DNA from: Streptomyces sp. Go-475 | Lineage (GTDB): Bacteria > Actinomycetota > Actinomycetes > Streptomycetales > Streptomycetaceae | DNA: 64,000 nt | NCBI RefSeq assembly: GCF_003330845.1 | Contig: NZ_CP026121.1 | Span: 744,001-808,000 of the forward strand | Reading direction: 5' to 3' | Shown: in pieces, positions 11,580-16,360 of the stretch | Layout of the letters: each line of letters starts with the position of its first letter | Position numbering within the stretch: the stretch's first letter is position 1 | Position numbers and translations under genes: made by a program | Notes under the pieces: model-generated | The model's input: only the letters and a program-made list of their open reading frames with translations | What the model was told of the DNA's origin: nothing | Database searches by the model: none

Positions 11580-12492
11580 CGCGTGTTTCTTTGACGGGTT
11601 GGTCAGTTGATCGGATGTGTCCGTCCGGTTAGTGATCACCGATGCGATGTGGGGCCGGATCGAGCCGCTGATGCCGGCGGATCCGGTCCGCGGGCGGCGA
11701 TGGGCCGACCACCGCCGCACCCTCGAGGCCATCGCGTGGAAGTACCGCACCAACTCGCCCTGGCGGGCCCTGCCCGACGAGCTCGGCTCCTTCCAGACCG
11801 CTCACAAGCGGCTGATCAGATGGGCCGTCGACGGAACCTGGCAGAGGATCCTCGCCGCCGTCCTGGCGGCGGCGGACGCCGACGACGACATCGACTGGAC
11901 CGTGTCAGTGGACTCCACGGTCGTCCGGGCCCACCAGCACGCCGCCGGAGCGCTCAAAAAGGGGCGGCCCGCACCGGCGAGCCCGCCGATCACGGGCTCG
12001 GCCGCTCCCGCGGAGGGCTGAGCACCAAGGTCCACCTGGCCGCAGACGGCCGCGCACGGCCCCTCGCCTTCACCATCACCGCGGGCCAGGCAGGTGACGC
12101 ACCCGCCTTCGAGACGGTGATGTCCCGCATCCGCGTGCCCCCGCACCGGCCCAGACAGGCCCCGCAATCGGCCCCTGGCCGTTCTGGCCGACCGCGCGTA
12201 CTCCTCACGCGCCATCCGCAGCCACCTGCGGCGCCGGGGCATCCGCGCGGTCATCCCGCAGCCGTCCGACCAAGTCGGCCACCGCCTGCGGCGAGGCCGG
12301 CTCGGTGGCCGTCCGCCCGGCTTCGACAGCGAGGTCGACAAGCAGCGGAACAGCGTCGAGCGGTGCATCAACCGCCTCAAGCAGTGGCGCGGCCTGGCCA
12401 CACGAACCGACAAGCTCGCGATCGCCCACCAGGCCGCACTCCACCTCGCGGGCATCCTCATCTGGACCCGACCCTGACCGAAGAGACAGAAC
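11580..12492 (+). mobile_element. IS5-family insertion sequence (copy 1)
   Basis: An element of about 913 bp runs from just after CTAG at 11576-11579 to AGACAGAAC at about 12492, followed by CTTG, a likely altered copy of the CTAG target. The terminal sequences are only weakly inverted: both contain TTGGTCAG or TCGGTCAG a short distance in. The right end GAGACAGAACC is repeated exactly at 15290-15301, which confirms it as an element terminus. IS5-family members of the IS427 type duplicate 2-4 bp targets of the CTAG kind. Confidence 0.7.
11617..12477 (+). pseudogene. IS5-family transposase, two frame changes
   Basis: The DDE transposase begins MSVRLVITDAMWGRIEPLM (GTG at 11617). The first catalytic Asp is in VSVDSTVVRAHQH. 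At CTCAAAAAGGGG (about 11955) the frame must slip back one base to continue GAARTGEPADHGLGRSRGGL, as in two-frame IS427-type elements that use programmed -1 frameshifting. A second change, one extra C in the run 12138-12142, is not programmed and separates the part with the second Asp (VLADRAYSS) and the Glu (SVERCINRLKQWRG). It is therefore probably inactive unless the C is a sequence error. Confidence 0.75.
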
Positions 12493-12518
12493 CTTGTCAG
12501 GCAGTCCCCCCGCCCTGC

Positions 12519-12547: not shown

Positions 12548-14098
12548 TCAGGCCTCGGATACAGCTTGCTTGACGATGGCAGCGAGCCTGGGACTGTGCC
12601 CATGCAGGGAGTCCAGCCAAGCGTCTGTCACGAAATCAGGCCTGGTCGATACGAGTTCTCTGGCAGCCGAGGCTACGAGGAACCCGACCTTGGTGGAGAC
12701 ATCGTCCTGGATGTGCTTGCGGTCCACGGACAACGCCGGCGCGGATGGACCTGACAGGTTGATCACCGCCCCGTGCAAACCGTTCGGGCCGTGGGAGTCT
12801 GCCAATAGCCCGTGGCGGACAGACGGCTGGACGAGCAGGCCATCGACCAACAGCGCTCCTCCTGATTCGCACCAGACCACTTGTCCCTTCAGCGTGCGCA
12901 TCAGCCTTCCACGCACGTTGAGGGCGTGCGCGTGATGGGGTGCCATCTGCCTGGTCCACTCGTGTGGTTCCCAAACTGCCGATCGAGTGCCGTGACGCGC
13001 CGTGGTTGTGTAGTCGGCGATACAGAGGAGCCGCTCCAACACGTCGACACAGGAGGGAGTGTTCTGTTCGTCCCTGATGAACAGTCGGACACGCGTACCA
13101 GGGGCACGGCCCTGGGCTTGCACCCGGCTGATTCGCGCAGTCTGCCCAGAACCGAGAACCGTCAGCTTCATCACCGGACCGGCGGCACCTCGCTGGTCCA
13201 TGCGGCACGTGGTTACCTCTATCTCATCGGCCAGCATGAAATAGCTCAGCACCCCAATGCCGAACCGACTGGTGGGATGCATGCGGACAGGCGGATTACA
13301 CCGCTCCCATTCAGAGGTCTCCCGCACGAACTCAGGCTGGCTGGCGAAGCGCACCCCGACGCGGGAGAAGCACGTTCTGAGCTCCTCTTCCCCCATGCCG
13401 ATACCGTTGTCGACACAGTCCAAGAAAGCGCGTCCGCGGTCGTCAACGCCCTGAACGAACTCGATACCGCCCTGCCAACGCACACTTGATCCTGTGCGTC
13501 GGCGCAGGTACTCGTACCGGGCCGTGCGATATCTGAGCGCATCCAAGGCGTTCTGGTACAGCTCGCGGATGGCTACTCCGCGGTCCTGGTAGAGGTGCGT
13601 GCCCATCAGTAGCTCGCGGACGCTCTCATCATTCAGCCTGTAGCGCTCCCGGGGTTCTTGCTCCTCACCCCTTGCTGGCGCATGGGCAGGGGCGATGGGA
13701 GCCCCCGTTTTCTCCGGGCCGGACTCCACCACACGCAACCGGATGCCGGTCGACCGGCGCAGGTCAGCGTCATCCGTCCTGGTGCCTGAGGGCGAGGCCG
13801 CAGGTGTGTCGATGAACGGGACGCCATACAGGTCTCCCTCCTCGGCCGCGATGCTGACCGACGGATTCCTCCAGGTGACCATGGTCTGAAGTGCGGTGTA
13901 GGTGTCGGTGCCTGTGCGTGCCACGGCCGTGTGGAAGGCGGAGGACGTGCCGGAGGCGGAACTGGCGCGCTTGACTGCGCGGAGCATTTCCTCGGTTTCC
14001 TCTGCACTGATCAGGGAGGATGCGAGGTCATCTCCCACGCGGTTCAGCCACGAGTTGAAAGCAGCGGAACTAGCCAGTTCGTTGTCGGACTCATCCAT
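12548..14098 (-). CDS. Hsp90-like GHKL ATPase (HATPase domain protein)
   Basis: A 516-residue protein. Residues 1-150 are low-complexity and lack a recognisable domain. From about 155 comes a GHKL ATPase: N-box E179, N183, D186 (RELYQNALDALRY), G1 box DNGIGM starting at D230, and G2 box RFGIGVLSYF near 278-287. The arrangement matches Streptomyces Hsp90-like proteins usually annotated as HD-domain proteins, but the N-terminal HD phosphohydrolase expected there is absent and the C terminus stops about 55 bases from an IS5 end, so truncation is possible. Its start overlaps the sigma-factor gene by eight bases. The role is unknown; related Hsp90-like ATPases occur in actinobacterial conflict systems. 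Confidence 0.8.
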   Translation of the reverse strand: MDESDNELASSAAFNSWLNRVGDDLASSLISAEETEEMLRAVKRASSASGTSSAFHTAVARTGTDTYTALQTMVTWRNPSVSIAAEEGDLYGVPFIDTPAASPSGTRTDDADLRRSTGIRLRVVESGPEKTGAPIAPAHAPARGEEQEPRERYRLNDESVRELLMGTHLYQDRGVAIRELYQNALDALRYRTARYEYLRRRTGSSVRWQGGIEFVQGVDDRGRAFLDCVDNGIGMGEEELRTCFSRVGVRFASQPEFVRETSEWERCNPPVRMHPTSRFGIGVLSYFMLADEIEVTTCRMDQRGAAGPVMKLTVLGSGQTARISRVQAQGRAPGTRVRLFIRDEQNTPSCVDVLERLLCIADYTTTARHGTRSAVWEPHEWTRQMAPHHAHALNVRGRLMRTLKGQVVWCESGGALLVDGLLVQPSVRHGLLADSHGPNGLHGAVINLSGPSAPALSVDRKHIQDDVSTKVGFLVASAARELVSTRPDFVTDAWLDSLHGHSPRLAAIVKQAVSEA

Positions 14099-14612
14099 CG
14101 TCGGACTCCTCCTCCCGGGACTCGGCCCACAGCTGTTTCAAACGATTCCGTGCGTGTCTCAGATTGGAACGCACCGTGTCAGCCGGTATTCCAAGGCGCA
14201 GTGCGATCTCTGCCGGTTTGGCTCCGTCCCACGTCCACGCCATGATCTGCTGTTGCACTCGCGGCAGCGCGCCCAGCAAGCCGAGCACCTCCTGCCGCTC
14301 CTGCTTTCGTGTGACTTCTTCCTCCGGGGTTCGCAAGTCGATGGCAGGGCAGGGAACCGCGGCCATCACGTTGACGACGTCGTGCCGGACCTCTTGTTCC
14401 CTCCCACGTAACGCCCTTCGGCGGGCGGCGATGCGGACCCACGCGGCCGGGTTCCTGACATTCGACCACTGCTCGTGGAGCTCGATCATGGCCTCCTGTG
14501 CTGCGTCCTTGGCGGCCTGACGTCCGAAACCTTGCACCACCAGGTGGCGGACCAGCAGGCTGATTTCCTGTCGGAAGAACGCATCGAACTCGTCCTCATG
14601 GGCGCTGGGCAA
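14091..14612 (-). CDS. ECF-type RNA polymerase sigma factor
   Basis: A protein of about 173 residues with sigma region 2 (FDAFFRQEISLLVRHLV ... AAWVRIAARRRA) and region 4 (LLGALPRVQQQIMAW ... IPADTVRSNLRHARNRLKQL). No region 3 is present, as in extracytoplasmic-function sigma factors. The TTG at 14612 is preceded by GGAGGAAGG at good spacing and is preferred; another TTG at 14646 in frame lacks this. The stop overlaps the ATPase start, so the two proteins are made together and the ATPase may act as its partner or regulator. No anti-sigma factor of the usual zinc type is seen. Confidence 0.85.
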   Translation of the reverse strand: MPSAHEDEFDAFFRQEISLLVRHLVVQGFGRQAAKDAAQEAMIELHEQWSNVRNPAAWVRIAARRRALRGREQEVRHDVVNVMAAVPCPAIDLRTPEEEVTRKQERQEVLGLLGALPRVQQQIMAWTWDGAKPAEIALRLGIPADTVRSNLRHARNRLKQLWAESREEESDDG

Positions 14613-14671
14613 GACGCGGTGCCTTCCTCCGGGGACTCGGCTGAGCAATGCATCCGATCACGCATGCTCTC

Positions 14672-14881
14672 CTATCCCCGGTTCCGGTCGAGCATCCACG
14701 CCAGCCCCACCGCGACCACGGCGGTCAGGACCGTGACGGCGAGGGAGTCTGTCGTCGTGTACACCGTGGCGAGAGCGGCAGCGGACCCGTGCAGGATCGC
14801 GATCTGGACTGCCAACCGCGAGTTACGGCTCGCGGGCCCCTCTCCCGCTCGGTCTGCTGCAGGCACGTTCGTGTCGTCCAT
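14672..14881 (-). CDS. Small membrane protein upstream of the sigma factor
   Basis: About 69 residues, starting at ATG 14881 or GTG 14887. A polar N-terminal third is followed by two hydrophobic stretches (VQIAILHGSAAALATVY and LAVTVLTAVVAVGLAWML) and a charged end (DRNRG), so it is probably a two-helix membrane protein with a short charged tail. It is on the same strand and about 60 bases upstream of the sigma gene, fitting the first gene of the operon. No homologue is recognised. There is no clear ribosome site, but a promoter-like pair directly upstream would give a leaderless message. Confidence 0.55.
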   Translation of the reverse strand: MDDTNVPAADRAGEGPASRNSRLAVQIAILHGSAAALATVYTTTDSLAVTVLTAVVAVGLAWMLDRNRG

Positions 14882-14886
14882 GCCCA

Positions 14887-14916
14887 CTAGTAACTAGTGA
14901 TCTTGAAAGTGTGCAA
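14887..14916 (-). promoter_or_regulatory. Candidate promoter and palindrome of the sigma-ATPase operon
   Basis: On the minus strand TTGCAC (14911-14916) and TACTAG (14887-14892) are 18 bases apart and the -10-like hexamer ends five bases before ATG 14881. The -10 region lies inside ACTAGTAACTAGT (14886-14898), two ACTAG T palindromes around one A, which could be bound by a regulator. Expected transcription would begin at or near the start codon. Confidence 0.4.
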
Positions 14917-15056: not shown

Positions 15057-15300
15057 GGCGCCTCCGCCGTCATCGGACCACATCGGCCGACGTCTGCGGC
15101 GAGGCCGCCAAGGCGGGCGCCTTCCAAGCTTCGATGCGGATGCCCATAAGCAGCGCACCACCGTCGAGTGGTGCATCAACCGCCGCAAGCAGTGGCGCGG
15201 CCTGGCCACACGAACCGATCAACTCGACATCACCCCCACGCCGCACTCCACCTCGCCGCCCATCCTCATCCGGGCACCACACTGACCAAAGAGACAGAAC
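15057..15300 (+). mobile_element. Decayed 3' end of a second IS5-family copy
   Basis: The segment aligns with the last 245 bases of copy 1. It retains CGTCGAGTGGTGCATCAACC, the CAGTGGCGCGGCCTGGCCAC block and the right terminus AAAGAGACAGAACC, but the frame is broken many times. Orientation is the same as copy 1. It ends directly against CTAG at 15301-15304. It therefore looks like the other arm of a composite structure around the sigma-ATPase operon. Confidence 0.8.
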
Positions 15301-15301
15301 C

Positions 15302-16360
15302 TAGGTGTATTGATCACGAGCGTTGTTAACGCCGACCGGGCTTGATCATGGTGAAGACCTCCGGTGTGGTGGAGCTGTCTAGGACTGCACCGCACGGAGG
15401 TCTTCGTGTCCCACCGTAATGCCCGGCTGACCGTTCACGGCAGGCGGCTGCTCGTCGAACGGGTCCGCGCCGGCCGCCCGGTCGCCCATGTCGCTGCGGA
15501 AATGGGCATTTCGCGCGTCACGGCCCACAAATGGATCCGCCGCTGGCGGGCGGAAGGCGAACCGGGGCTGCACGACCGCCCCAGCCGTCCGAAGACCACA
15601 CCCCACCGCACGGCGCCAGCGGTGGAGGCCCGGGTCTGCCGCCTGCGCCAGGACCGCAAACTCGGCCCCGCCCGCCTCGGCCCGATCCTCGGCCTGCCCG
15701 CCTCGACTGTGCACCGCGTCCTGGCTCGGCACGGCCTGAACGGCTGGCGCTCATGGACCGCCCCACCGGAAGGGACAACGGACGCTACGAACGCGCCACC
15801 CCCGGCGAGCTGGTCCACAGGGACGTCAAGAAACTCGGCCGGATCCCGGACGGCGGCGGCCACAGGATGCTCGGCCGCCAGGCCGGCCGGGCCACCCGCG
15901 GAGGCATGGGATTCGACTACATCCACTCCGCCGTCGACGACCACACCCGCCTCGCCTACAGCGAGATCCACCACGACGAGAAGGTCGCCACCTGCGCAGG
16001 CTTCCTCATCCGCGCGGCCGCGTTCTTCCACGCGCACGGCATCACCCGCATCGAGCGCGTGCTCACCGACAACGCCTGGGCCTACCGCAAAGGCCTGGCC
16101 TGGAAACAAGCCCTCGCCGAGATCGGCGCCACCGGCAAACTCACCCGCATCTACCGGCCCCAGACCAACGGCAAGGTCGAACGCTTCAACCGCACCCTGC
16201 TCGACGAATGGGCCTACCTGCGGCCCTACACCAGCAACACCGAACGCACCGCCGCCCTGACAGACTTCCTGCACACCTACAACCACCACCGCTGCCACAC
16301 CGCACTCGGCGGCCAGCCACCGATCACCCGCGTCAACAACCCTGCGGGTCAATACACCTA
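15302..16360 (+). mobile_element. IS481-type insertion sequence
   Basis: Perfect 12-bp inverted ends TAGGTGTATTGA (15302-15313) and TCAATACACCTA (16349-16360) bound a 1,059-bp element carrying one transposase gene. The transposase stop codon TAG uses the last two bases of the right end plus the next base. The left end abuts the IS5 remnant and the right end abuts the next element, so this copy probably inserted into or beside older insertion sequences. No clear target duplication other than the shared CTAG is seen. Confidence 0.9.

Follow-up and report, generated by a model that had tools for sequence, protein, structure and literature searches.

An ECF sigma factor, an Hsp90-type ATPase and a two-helix membrane peptide in a mobile operon of Streptomyces sp. 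Go-475: a possible ATP-driven hold on a sigma factor

What does an Hsp90-type ATPase do in one operon with an ECF sigma factor and a very small membrane protein? These three genes and the element in front of them occupy positions 12548–14914 of a 64,000 nt stretch of Streptomyces sp. Go-475 (NZ_CP026121.1, 744,001–808,000), which we refer to as the window. A preliminary description had placed them on the minus strand in the order membrane peptide, sigma factor, ATPase with an eight-base overlap between the latter two. The ORF calls agree with this arrangement, and the overlap is indeed eight bases long, the sigma gene ending at 14091 and the ATPase gene starting at 14098. This tight overlap suggests that translation of sigma factor and ATPase is coupled. 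For the peptide the most likely start is the ATG at 14881, which gives 69 aa. Relatives of the sigma factor share the start MPSA.ED.F; judged by sequence, its most likely start is therefore the TTG at 14612 (173 aa) rather than 14648. All features are listed in Table 1.

Table 1. Features of the operon and its surroundings (positions in the window).
Feature	Position	Strand	Basis or remark
Gene 1, membrane hairpin peptide of 69 aa, 2-TM family with Y-x-T-T-x-S loop	14672..14881	-	stop at 14672
Gene 2, ECF sigma factor, 173 aa, TTG start	14091..14612	-	domain models and starts of relatives
Gene 3, 516 aa: helical N-terminal domain, linker and Hsp90-type ATPase	12548..14098	-	
Overlap of sigma and ATPase genes, 8 bases	14091..14098	-	also 8 bases in pSCO1, 4 in Kitasatospora
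Helical N-terminal domain, ATPase residues 9-84, candidate sigma-holding part	13847..14074	-	predicted helices
Motif common to other gene-3 proteins, ATPase residues 14-46	13961..14059	-	shuffle test and HMM
Hsp90 N domain and middle domain, ATPase residues 158-516, without C-terminal dimerisation domain	12551..13627	-	
Conserved promoter-like element directly 5' of the ATG	14882..14914	-	TTGCAC as approximate -35, TACTAG as approximate -10
IS5-family element directly behind the operon	11600..12494	+	90.2% identity to annotated copy
Remnant of an end from a related IS5-family element, beyond gene 1 and in equal orientation	15064..15302	.	direct repeats D1, D3

At 43.4 bits the sigma factor lies just above the cut-off of the ECF superfamily model (42.9). 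Region 4 is recognised above its cut-off (E 1.1e-8), region 2 below its own cut-off (E 8e-4) and region 3 only with E 0.036, leaving the combination of regions 2 and 4 without region 3 that characterizes ECF sigma factors. The C-terminal part also matches a CARF model of PADLOC 2.0 (E 3.9e-4).

In the ATPase, the residues E179, N183 and D186 and the motif DNGIGM beginning at D230 are located exactly where they had been described. In an alignment of 37 relatives M235 is invariant, and E179, N183, D186, D230, G232 and G234 each occur in at least 90% of the sequences, so the catalytic Glu, the N-box Asn and Asp and the DxGxG sequence of the Hsp90/HtpG type of GHKL N domain are present. The HSP90 family model matches with E 2.2e-17, yet at 62.7 bits against a cut-off of 455, and HATPase_c_3 (E 0.0039, below cut-off) is the sole hmmscan listing at E≤1; the kinase-type HATPase_c_2 domain of RsbW and SpoIIAB was not detected in this search. 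The predicted fold is clear: structure prediction and fold matching both give the Hsp90 N and middle domains. The model aligns to these two domains of Hsp90. D459-R460 is nearly invariant among the 37 relatives, and in our reading the Arg may be the equivalent of the catalytic Arg of Hsp90. The protein resembles Hsp90 and HtpG in that its GHKL N domain has the E/N/D motif, DNGIGM and lid-region glycines, and in that its middle domain contains an SVDRK motif whose Arg is conserved. It differs from them in its short middle domain, in a helical N-terminal domain and linker of its own, and in the absence of the C-terminal dimerisation domain from its 516 residues: the final helices align to the middle domain, and the alignments with the top Hsp90 fold matches stop near residue 400–510 of chains that continue further. 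Among large proteins, the ATPase domain is most closely related to HD-CE, iHD-CE and wHTH-Hsp90 proteins with roughly 35–60% identity over the aligned part, those carrying PF24391, PF24401 or PF24410 matching at E values down to 3e-104; caspase, HD-CE, iHD-CE and wHTH-Hsp90-associated domains are fused to relatives of this domain. One large relative is encoded in the same genome (G000:C1:3842156-3843232, frame of 1593 aa, 43% identity).

The membrane peptide belongs to a 2-TM family of its own, with 53 proteins at E≤0.01 in a profile search, mostly from Streptomyces where a source is named. T44 and S46 are invariant in an alignment of 28 rows, Y41 and T43 kept in at least 90%. The family is rare, being found in 4 of 392 genomes of the genus at E≤1e-5, and a search with the peptide family sequence P0138 returned no plasmid relatives. 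Membership in the SLATT family was rejected (15.3 bits at a cut-off of 26.3, E 0.022), as was a phage origin, for which the only matches were two short Listeria phage records with 27% identity over 43% of the query. At three further loci (L207, L267, L208) a peptide gene likewise precedes an ECF-like sigma gene and a gene-3 protein. Upstream of the 2-TM gene, a CTAG is found 6 bases from the ATG in L208 and L267 and 5 bases from it in the window, and is missing in L207; this suggests a common -10 element of leaderless genes in L208, L267 and the window.

The whole trio recurs on the S. collinus plasmid pSCO1 with protein identities of 90% (peptide), 94% (sigma factor) and 94% (ATPase). Comparing the two copies, dN/dS is 1.39 from 9 changes for the peptide, 0.75 from 17 changes for the sigma factor and 0.30 for the ATPase. 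A distant trio with overlapping genes was found by tblastn in Kitasatospora xanthocidica (approximately 39% identity over 38 residues for the peptide, 41% for the sigma factor, 41% for the ATPase), and when 70 Kitasatospora genomes were searched with the protein P0009, the front part was detected in this copy only. The operon had been called mobile, which is supported: an IS5-family copy lies on one side and a remnant on the other, and a plasmid copy exists. The 90.2% identity of the downstream element extends over 94% of the query, and the remnant contains direct repeats of this copy, D1 with 78% and D3 with 86% identity. A similar IS end is located behind the ATPase gene of pSCO1; on the same plasmid (5601-9081 of locus L115) an fxsT gene and a gene of the trypco2 family lie about 2 kb from the trio. 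Taken together, a conserved mobile unit is supported.

The promoter-like element that had been noticed upstream of the first gene is conserved above chance: in fixed register 24 of 33 bases match the distant Kitasatospora operon (binomial p 1.3e-8 at an expected rate of 0.25), compared with 21/60 in the first gene bases and 10/27 further up. From its sequence it would be a promoter with a -35/-10 pair and a leaderless start. Its core, GCACnCTTTCAnGATCAC, occurs once without mismatch in the genome of the strain and at two more places with two mismatches. For the 394 genomes of the family the listing at no more than one mismatch contains 56 places, distributed over 51 genomes, and a reversed control pattern matched much less often. 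Among the near-matches listed we recognised no other copy of the operon, and the one further exact match, in genome G610, is without such an operon on reading. Viral contigs gave 15 matches to the core, 7 of which are listed. At the 66 sigma loci described below (window, pSCO1 and Kitasatospora excluded) the best upstream matches reach 12–17 of 26 positions compared with about 13.5 in shuffles; three loci (L122, L242 and L214 with 16, 17 and 17 of 26) exceed all 60 shuffles, their matches being located at other distances. With these counts of the core in the strain and in the family, a regulon defined by the element is unsupported. A palindrome over the -10 box, CACTAGTTACTAGTG, is unique in the genome at no mismatch; since it is not kept in Kitasatospora, we dropped it as evidence for an operator.

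If the ATPase serves the sigma factor, the two genes would be expected side by side elsewhere, and here the picture is divided. Among 123 ATPase loci collected, duplicates included, we judged the 79 for which the sequence extends 400 bases or more beyond the start of the reading frame. An ECF-type sigma gene lies directly upstream on the same strand at only five of them, which represent three distinct records (L006/L086, L007 and L014/L248). These five are the loci that match the window protein from before residue 20. By comparison, an upstream sigma gene is absent from all 73 judged loci in which the match begins no earlier than residue 60, and also from L045, which matches from residue 50. 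Once the window and pSCO1 are counted, five distinct records include the N-terminal domain from the beginning, and all five are linked to a sigma gene. In L006 and L007 the ATPase is extended by an additional part at its front, and the neighbor is a different ECF sigma factor (read on L199, the contig of L006); the link was therefore kept while the sigma factor changed. The sigma gene of these loci is preceded by a possible small membrane ORF, recognised by eye. The proteins P0002 and P0004 come from contigs of the same lengths as those of the sigma factors P0110 and P0112, respectively, and may adjoin them. Adjacency is thus rare in the ATPase superfamily as a whole, and homologues of the sigma factor usually stand beside another protein, but it holds for the N-terminal domain. 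In the records examined, the constant link is one between a sigma factor and the helical N-terminal domain of the next gene, and the ATPase looks like one interchangeable sensor among several.

The sigma factor has matches at E≤1e-12 in 55 of the 394 genomes of the family and at E≤1e-5 in 25 plasmid records. From the family genomes, pSCO1 and 8 of 24 other plasmid records we assembled 66 distinct sigma loci (tblastn E≤1e-3). By a mechanical count in which a few ORFs resemble wrong frames, 61 of the 66 have an ORF of at least 60 aa starting between -60 and +10 of the sigma stop codon, and in 43 of the 66 the start is at -1, -4 or -8. An overlap directly after the sigma gene is the usual place of an anti-sigma gene. 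A small membrane ORF upstream of the sigma gene was found at 36 of 65 loci, compared with 3 of 65 on the antisense strand.

The proteins encoded by the third gene are diverse. Pfam searches of eight hand-picked ones detected STAS, a Bac_transf sugar transferase, NuoF-like plus ferredoxin, DUF742, VWA and DUF5667 once each, and no domain at all in two. A cold-shock domain was seen by eye in the protein of L138, and varied domains stand behind a short helical-looking start at L117/L197, L118/L198, L120, L126, L134, L208, L217 and other loci. For 17 of 21 sister loci on long contigs, the distance to the nearer end is at most 15% of the contig (binomial p 2e-6, with rounded values for part of the lengths). 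In the genomes G504, G634 and G091 (L263/L266 in the latter) sister sigma factors or 2-TM genes occur twice, near both contig ends, as expected for terminal inverted repeats. Go-475 itself has a second, distant sigma module (G000:C1:8140688-8141158) with a third protein of 331 aa, and on plasmid pSMg1-2 (L244, 4028-8474) a sister module adjoins annotated type I-E CRISPR genes.

Is the short start of these proteins related to that of the ATPase? Helices are predicted for residues 11-28, 32-47, 53-60 and 64-77 of the ATPase (pLDDT of the block about 60–75), and 5 columns are invariant across 12 aligned rows. Of the next-gene proteins, 32 fit a first motif, a figure from iterated training and hence not independent; others fit a second type and the remainder neither. 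We trained the first motif without the clade of the window and scored it against 2000 shuffles. For residues 14-46 of the window ATPase none of the 2000 shuffles reaches the score, and the same is true for L115 and P0002–P0004. The p-values are 0.008 for K. xanthocidica, 0.011 for P0005 and 0.014 for the STAS protein; scored singly, P0006, P0007, P0008, P0009 and P0011 are not significant. An HMM of the second type, type B, built from 9 stretches cut out by eye, has its best matches outside the training set in P0003, P0001 (the window protein), P0004 and L115 (E 2.4e-4 to 1.2e-3). P0002 follows with E 0.051, and Kitasatospora L170, P0005, P0008, P0009 and P0011 are unlisted. Comparison by hhalign gave P 8e-5 and a probability of 61%. 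With 12 stretches, again cut out by eye, the type-B signal became weaker: P0003 (14.3 bits) and P0004 (13.0 bits) still exceed all 4000 shuffles, while the window protein scores 9.2 bits, below the best shuffle (10.3). The two motif types barely match one another (hhalign probability 3%). Modelled alone, the N-terminal domain has a mean pLDDT of 59, and Foldseek listed no match for this model; since the model is weak, this blank excludes no known anti-sigma fold. From these sequence comparisons, an N-terminal sigma-holding element common to the gene-3 proteins is likely, if unproven.

The preliminary description had found no conventional anti-sigma factor in the operon. No curated model matches one, the Pfam search of the ATPase N-terminus included. 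Given the constant link between sigma factor and N-terminal domain, however, a candidate anti-sigma element may lie inside the ATPase. Three features speak for gene 3 as the regulator of the sigma factor: the gene order, the overlap and the way in which sensor domains are swapped after a related N-terminal start. We therefore favor, at slightly better than even odds (about 0.55), a mobile ECF sigma module whose third gene product holds and releases the sigma factor, with the Hsp90-type clamp as sensor. That the ATPase does so had already been proposed; it is still the best reading, although the ATPase is so rarely sigma-adjacent in its superfamily. Residues ~9-84 of the ATPase would bind and hold the sigma factor, and the clamp behind its flexible linker would be the sensor part. 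The clamp would be altered by binding or hydrolysis of ATP, or when it captures a signal molecule or a client, such that the sigma factor is freed or hidden; once free, the sigma factor would guide RNA polymerase to the target genes. The 2-TM peptide could tie the sigma/ATPase pair to the membrane or supply the signal, probably as a membrane input. Sigma binding, inhibition as the direction of the effect, the ATP switch, the role of the peptide and the targets are what we infer.

The same genes can be arranged differently. A defence unit had also been suggested, and in that case the ATPase could be a conflict sensor or effector that does not hold the sigma factor captive, the sigma factor serving instead as its output and activating response genes. 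The fusion of ATPase-domain relatives to caspase, HD-CE, iHD-CE and wHTH-Hsp90-associated domains fits such a read-out, and so do the fxsT and trypco2 genes close to the pSCO1 trio. ECF sigma genes beside EACC2/caspase systems, with a proposed transcriptional output, are also described in the part of Kaur et al. 2021 that we consulted (PMC8195603). All of this support is indirect. Domain-model searches of the three operon proteins found no HD-CE, iHD-CE, wHTH or caspase domain, PADLOC 2.0 fits no system model to the operon (the ATPase has only a weak restriction-enzyme match, E 0.07), and the sigma relatives are accompanied by domains that we do not know as defence domains. This is the main alternative to the favored reading, and we consider it rather unlikely.

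The predicted Hsp90 N and middle fold with its conserved catalytic residues would also suit an ATPase on which the sigma factor depends as its own chaperone or co-activator, so that loss of the ATPase would lower sigma activity; the tight overlap, suggestive of coupled translation, could be read in the same way. The gene-3 proteins that follow the sister sigma factors do not, however, look like chaperones, and we regard a folding helper as improbable. Still a little less probable is a selfish or plasmid-maintenance cassette carried on IS elements and plasmids without any specific signal. The IS5-family sequence on both sides, the plasmid copy and the crowding of sister modules near contig ends would be expected of it, but not the purifying selection on the ATPase or the conserved upstream element.

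The favored reading, a sigma factor held by gene 3, has partial parallels. Sigma factors of other classes have anti-sigma kinases of the GHKL type: RsbW and SpoIIAB are kinase-type GHKL proteins for SigB/SigF-type sigma factors and lack the Hsp90 middle domain. The operon shares with them the pairing of a GHKL ATPase with a sigma factor, and one sister module carries STAS. Proteins of the HD-CE, iHD-CE and wHTH-Hsp90 conflict type (PF24391, PF24401, PF24410) have a homologous Hsp90-like ATPase domain, but are large and multidomain, and their extra domains are missing from the operon. Soluble and membrane anti-sigma factors of ECF sigma factors are well known (PMC8999054, PMC8103513, both as far as consulted). 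Closest in layout are soluble pairs of the RpoE-ChrR type, which as presented in the part of PMC8999054 consulted have the sigma gene followed by its regulator, with an N-terminal holding part (here a candidate) and a C-terminal sensor; the operon differs in that no zinc or other curated anti-sigma domain was found in it, in an Hsp90-type ATPase as sensor and in an extra membrane peptide upstream. A term search of the accessible text of Kaur et al. 2020 and 2021 returned neither "Hsp90" nor "GHKL". Neither the pairing of an Hsp90-like ATPase with an ECF sigma factor nor an account of the exchangeable gene-3 family was found in the literature searched, the scope of which stopped short of the main ECF classification paper.

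More broadly, and at somewhat less than even odds, the operon may represent an undescribed class of mobile ECF modules in Streptomycetaceae, composed of a peptide, a sigma factor and a sigma-holding element with interchangeable sensors (Hsp90-type ATPase, STAS, VWA, DUF742, NuoF-like, sugar transferase, cold-shock), the version in the window being an ATP-driven anti-sigma clamp. If so, one short sigma-holding element would be joined to many unrelated sensors, and the family would therefore offer a naturally occurring collection of the inputs to which sigma factors have been coupled. The operon studied here would be the first case known to us of an Hsp90-type ATP clamp acting as an anti-sigma factor, and the large Hsp90-like conflict-type proteins of actinobacteria would gain a small relative with a clear partner.
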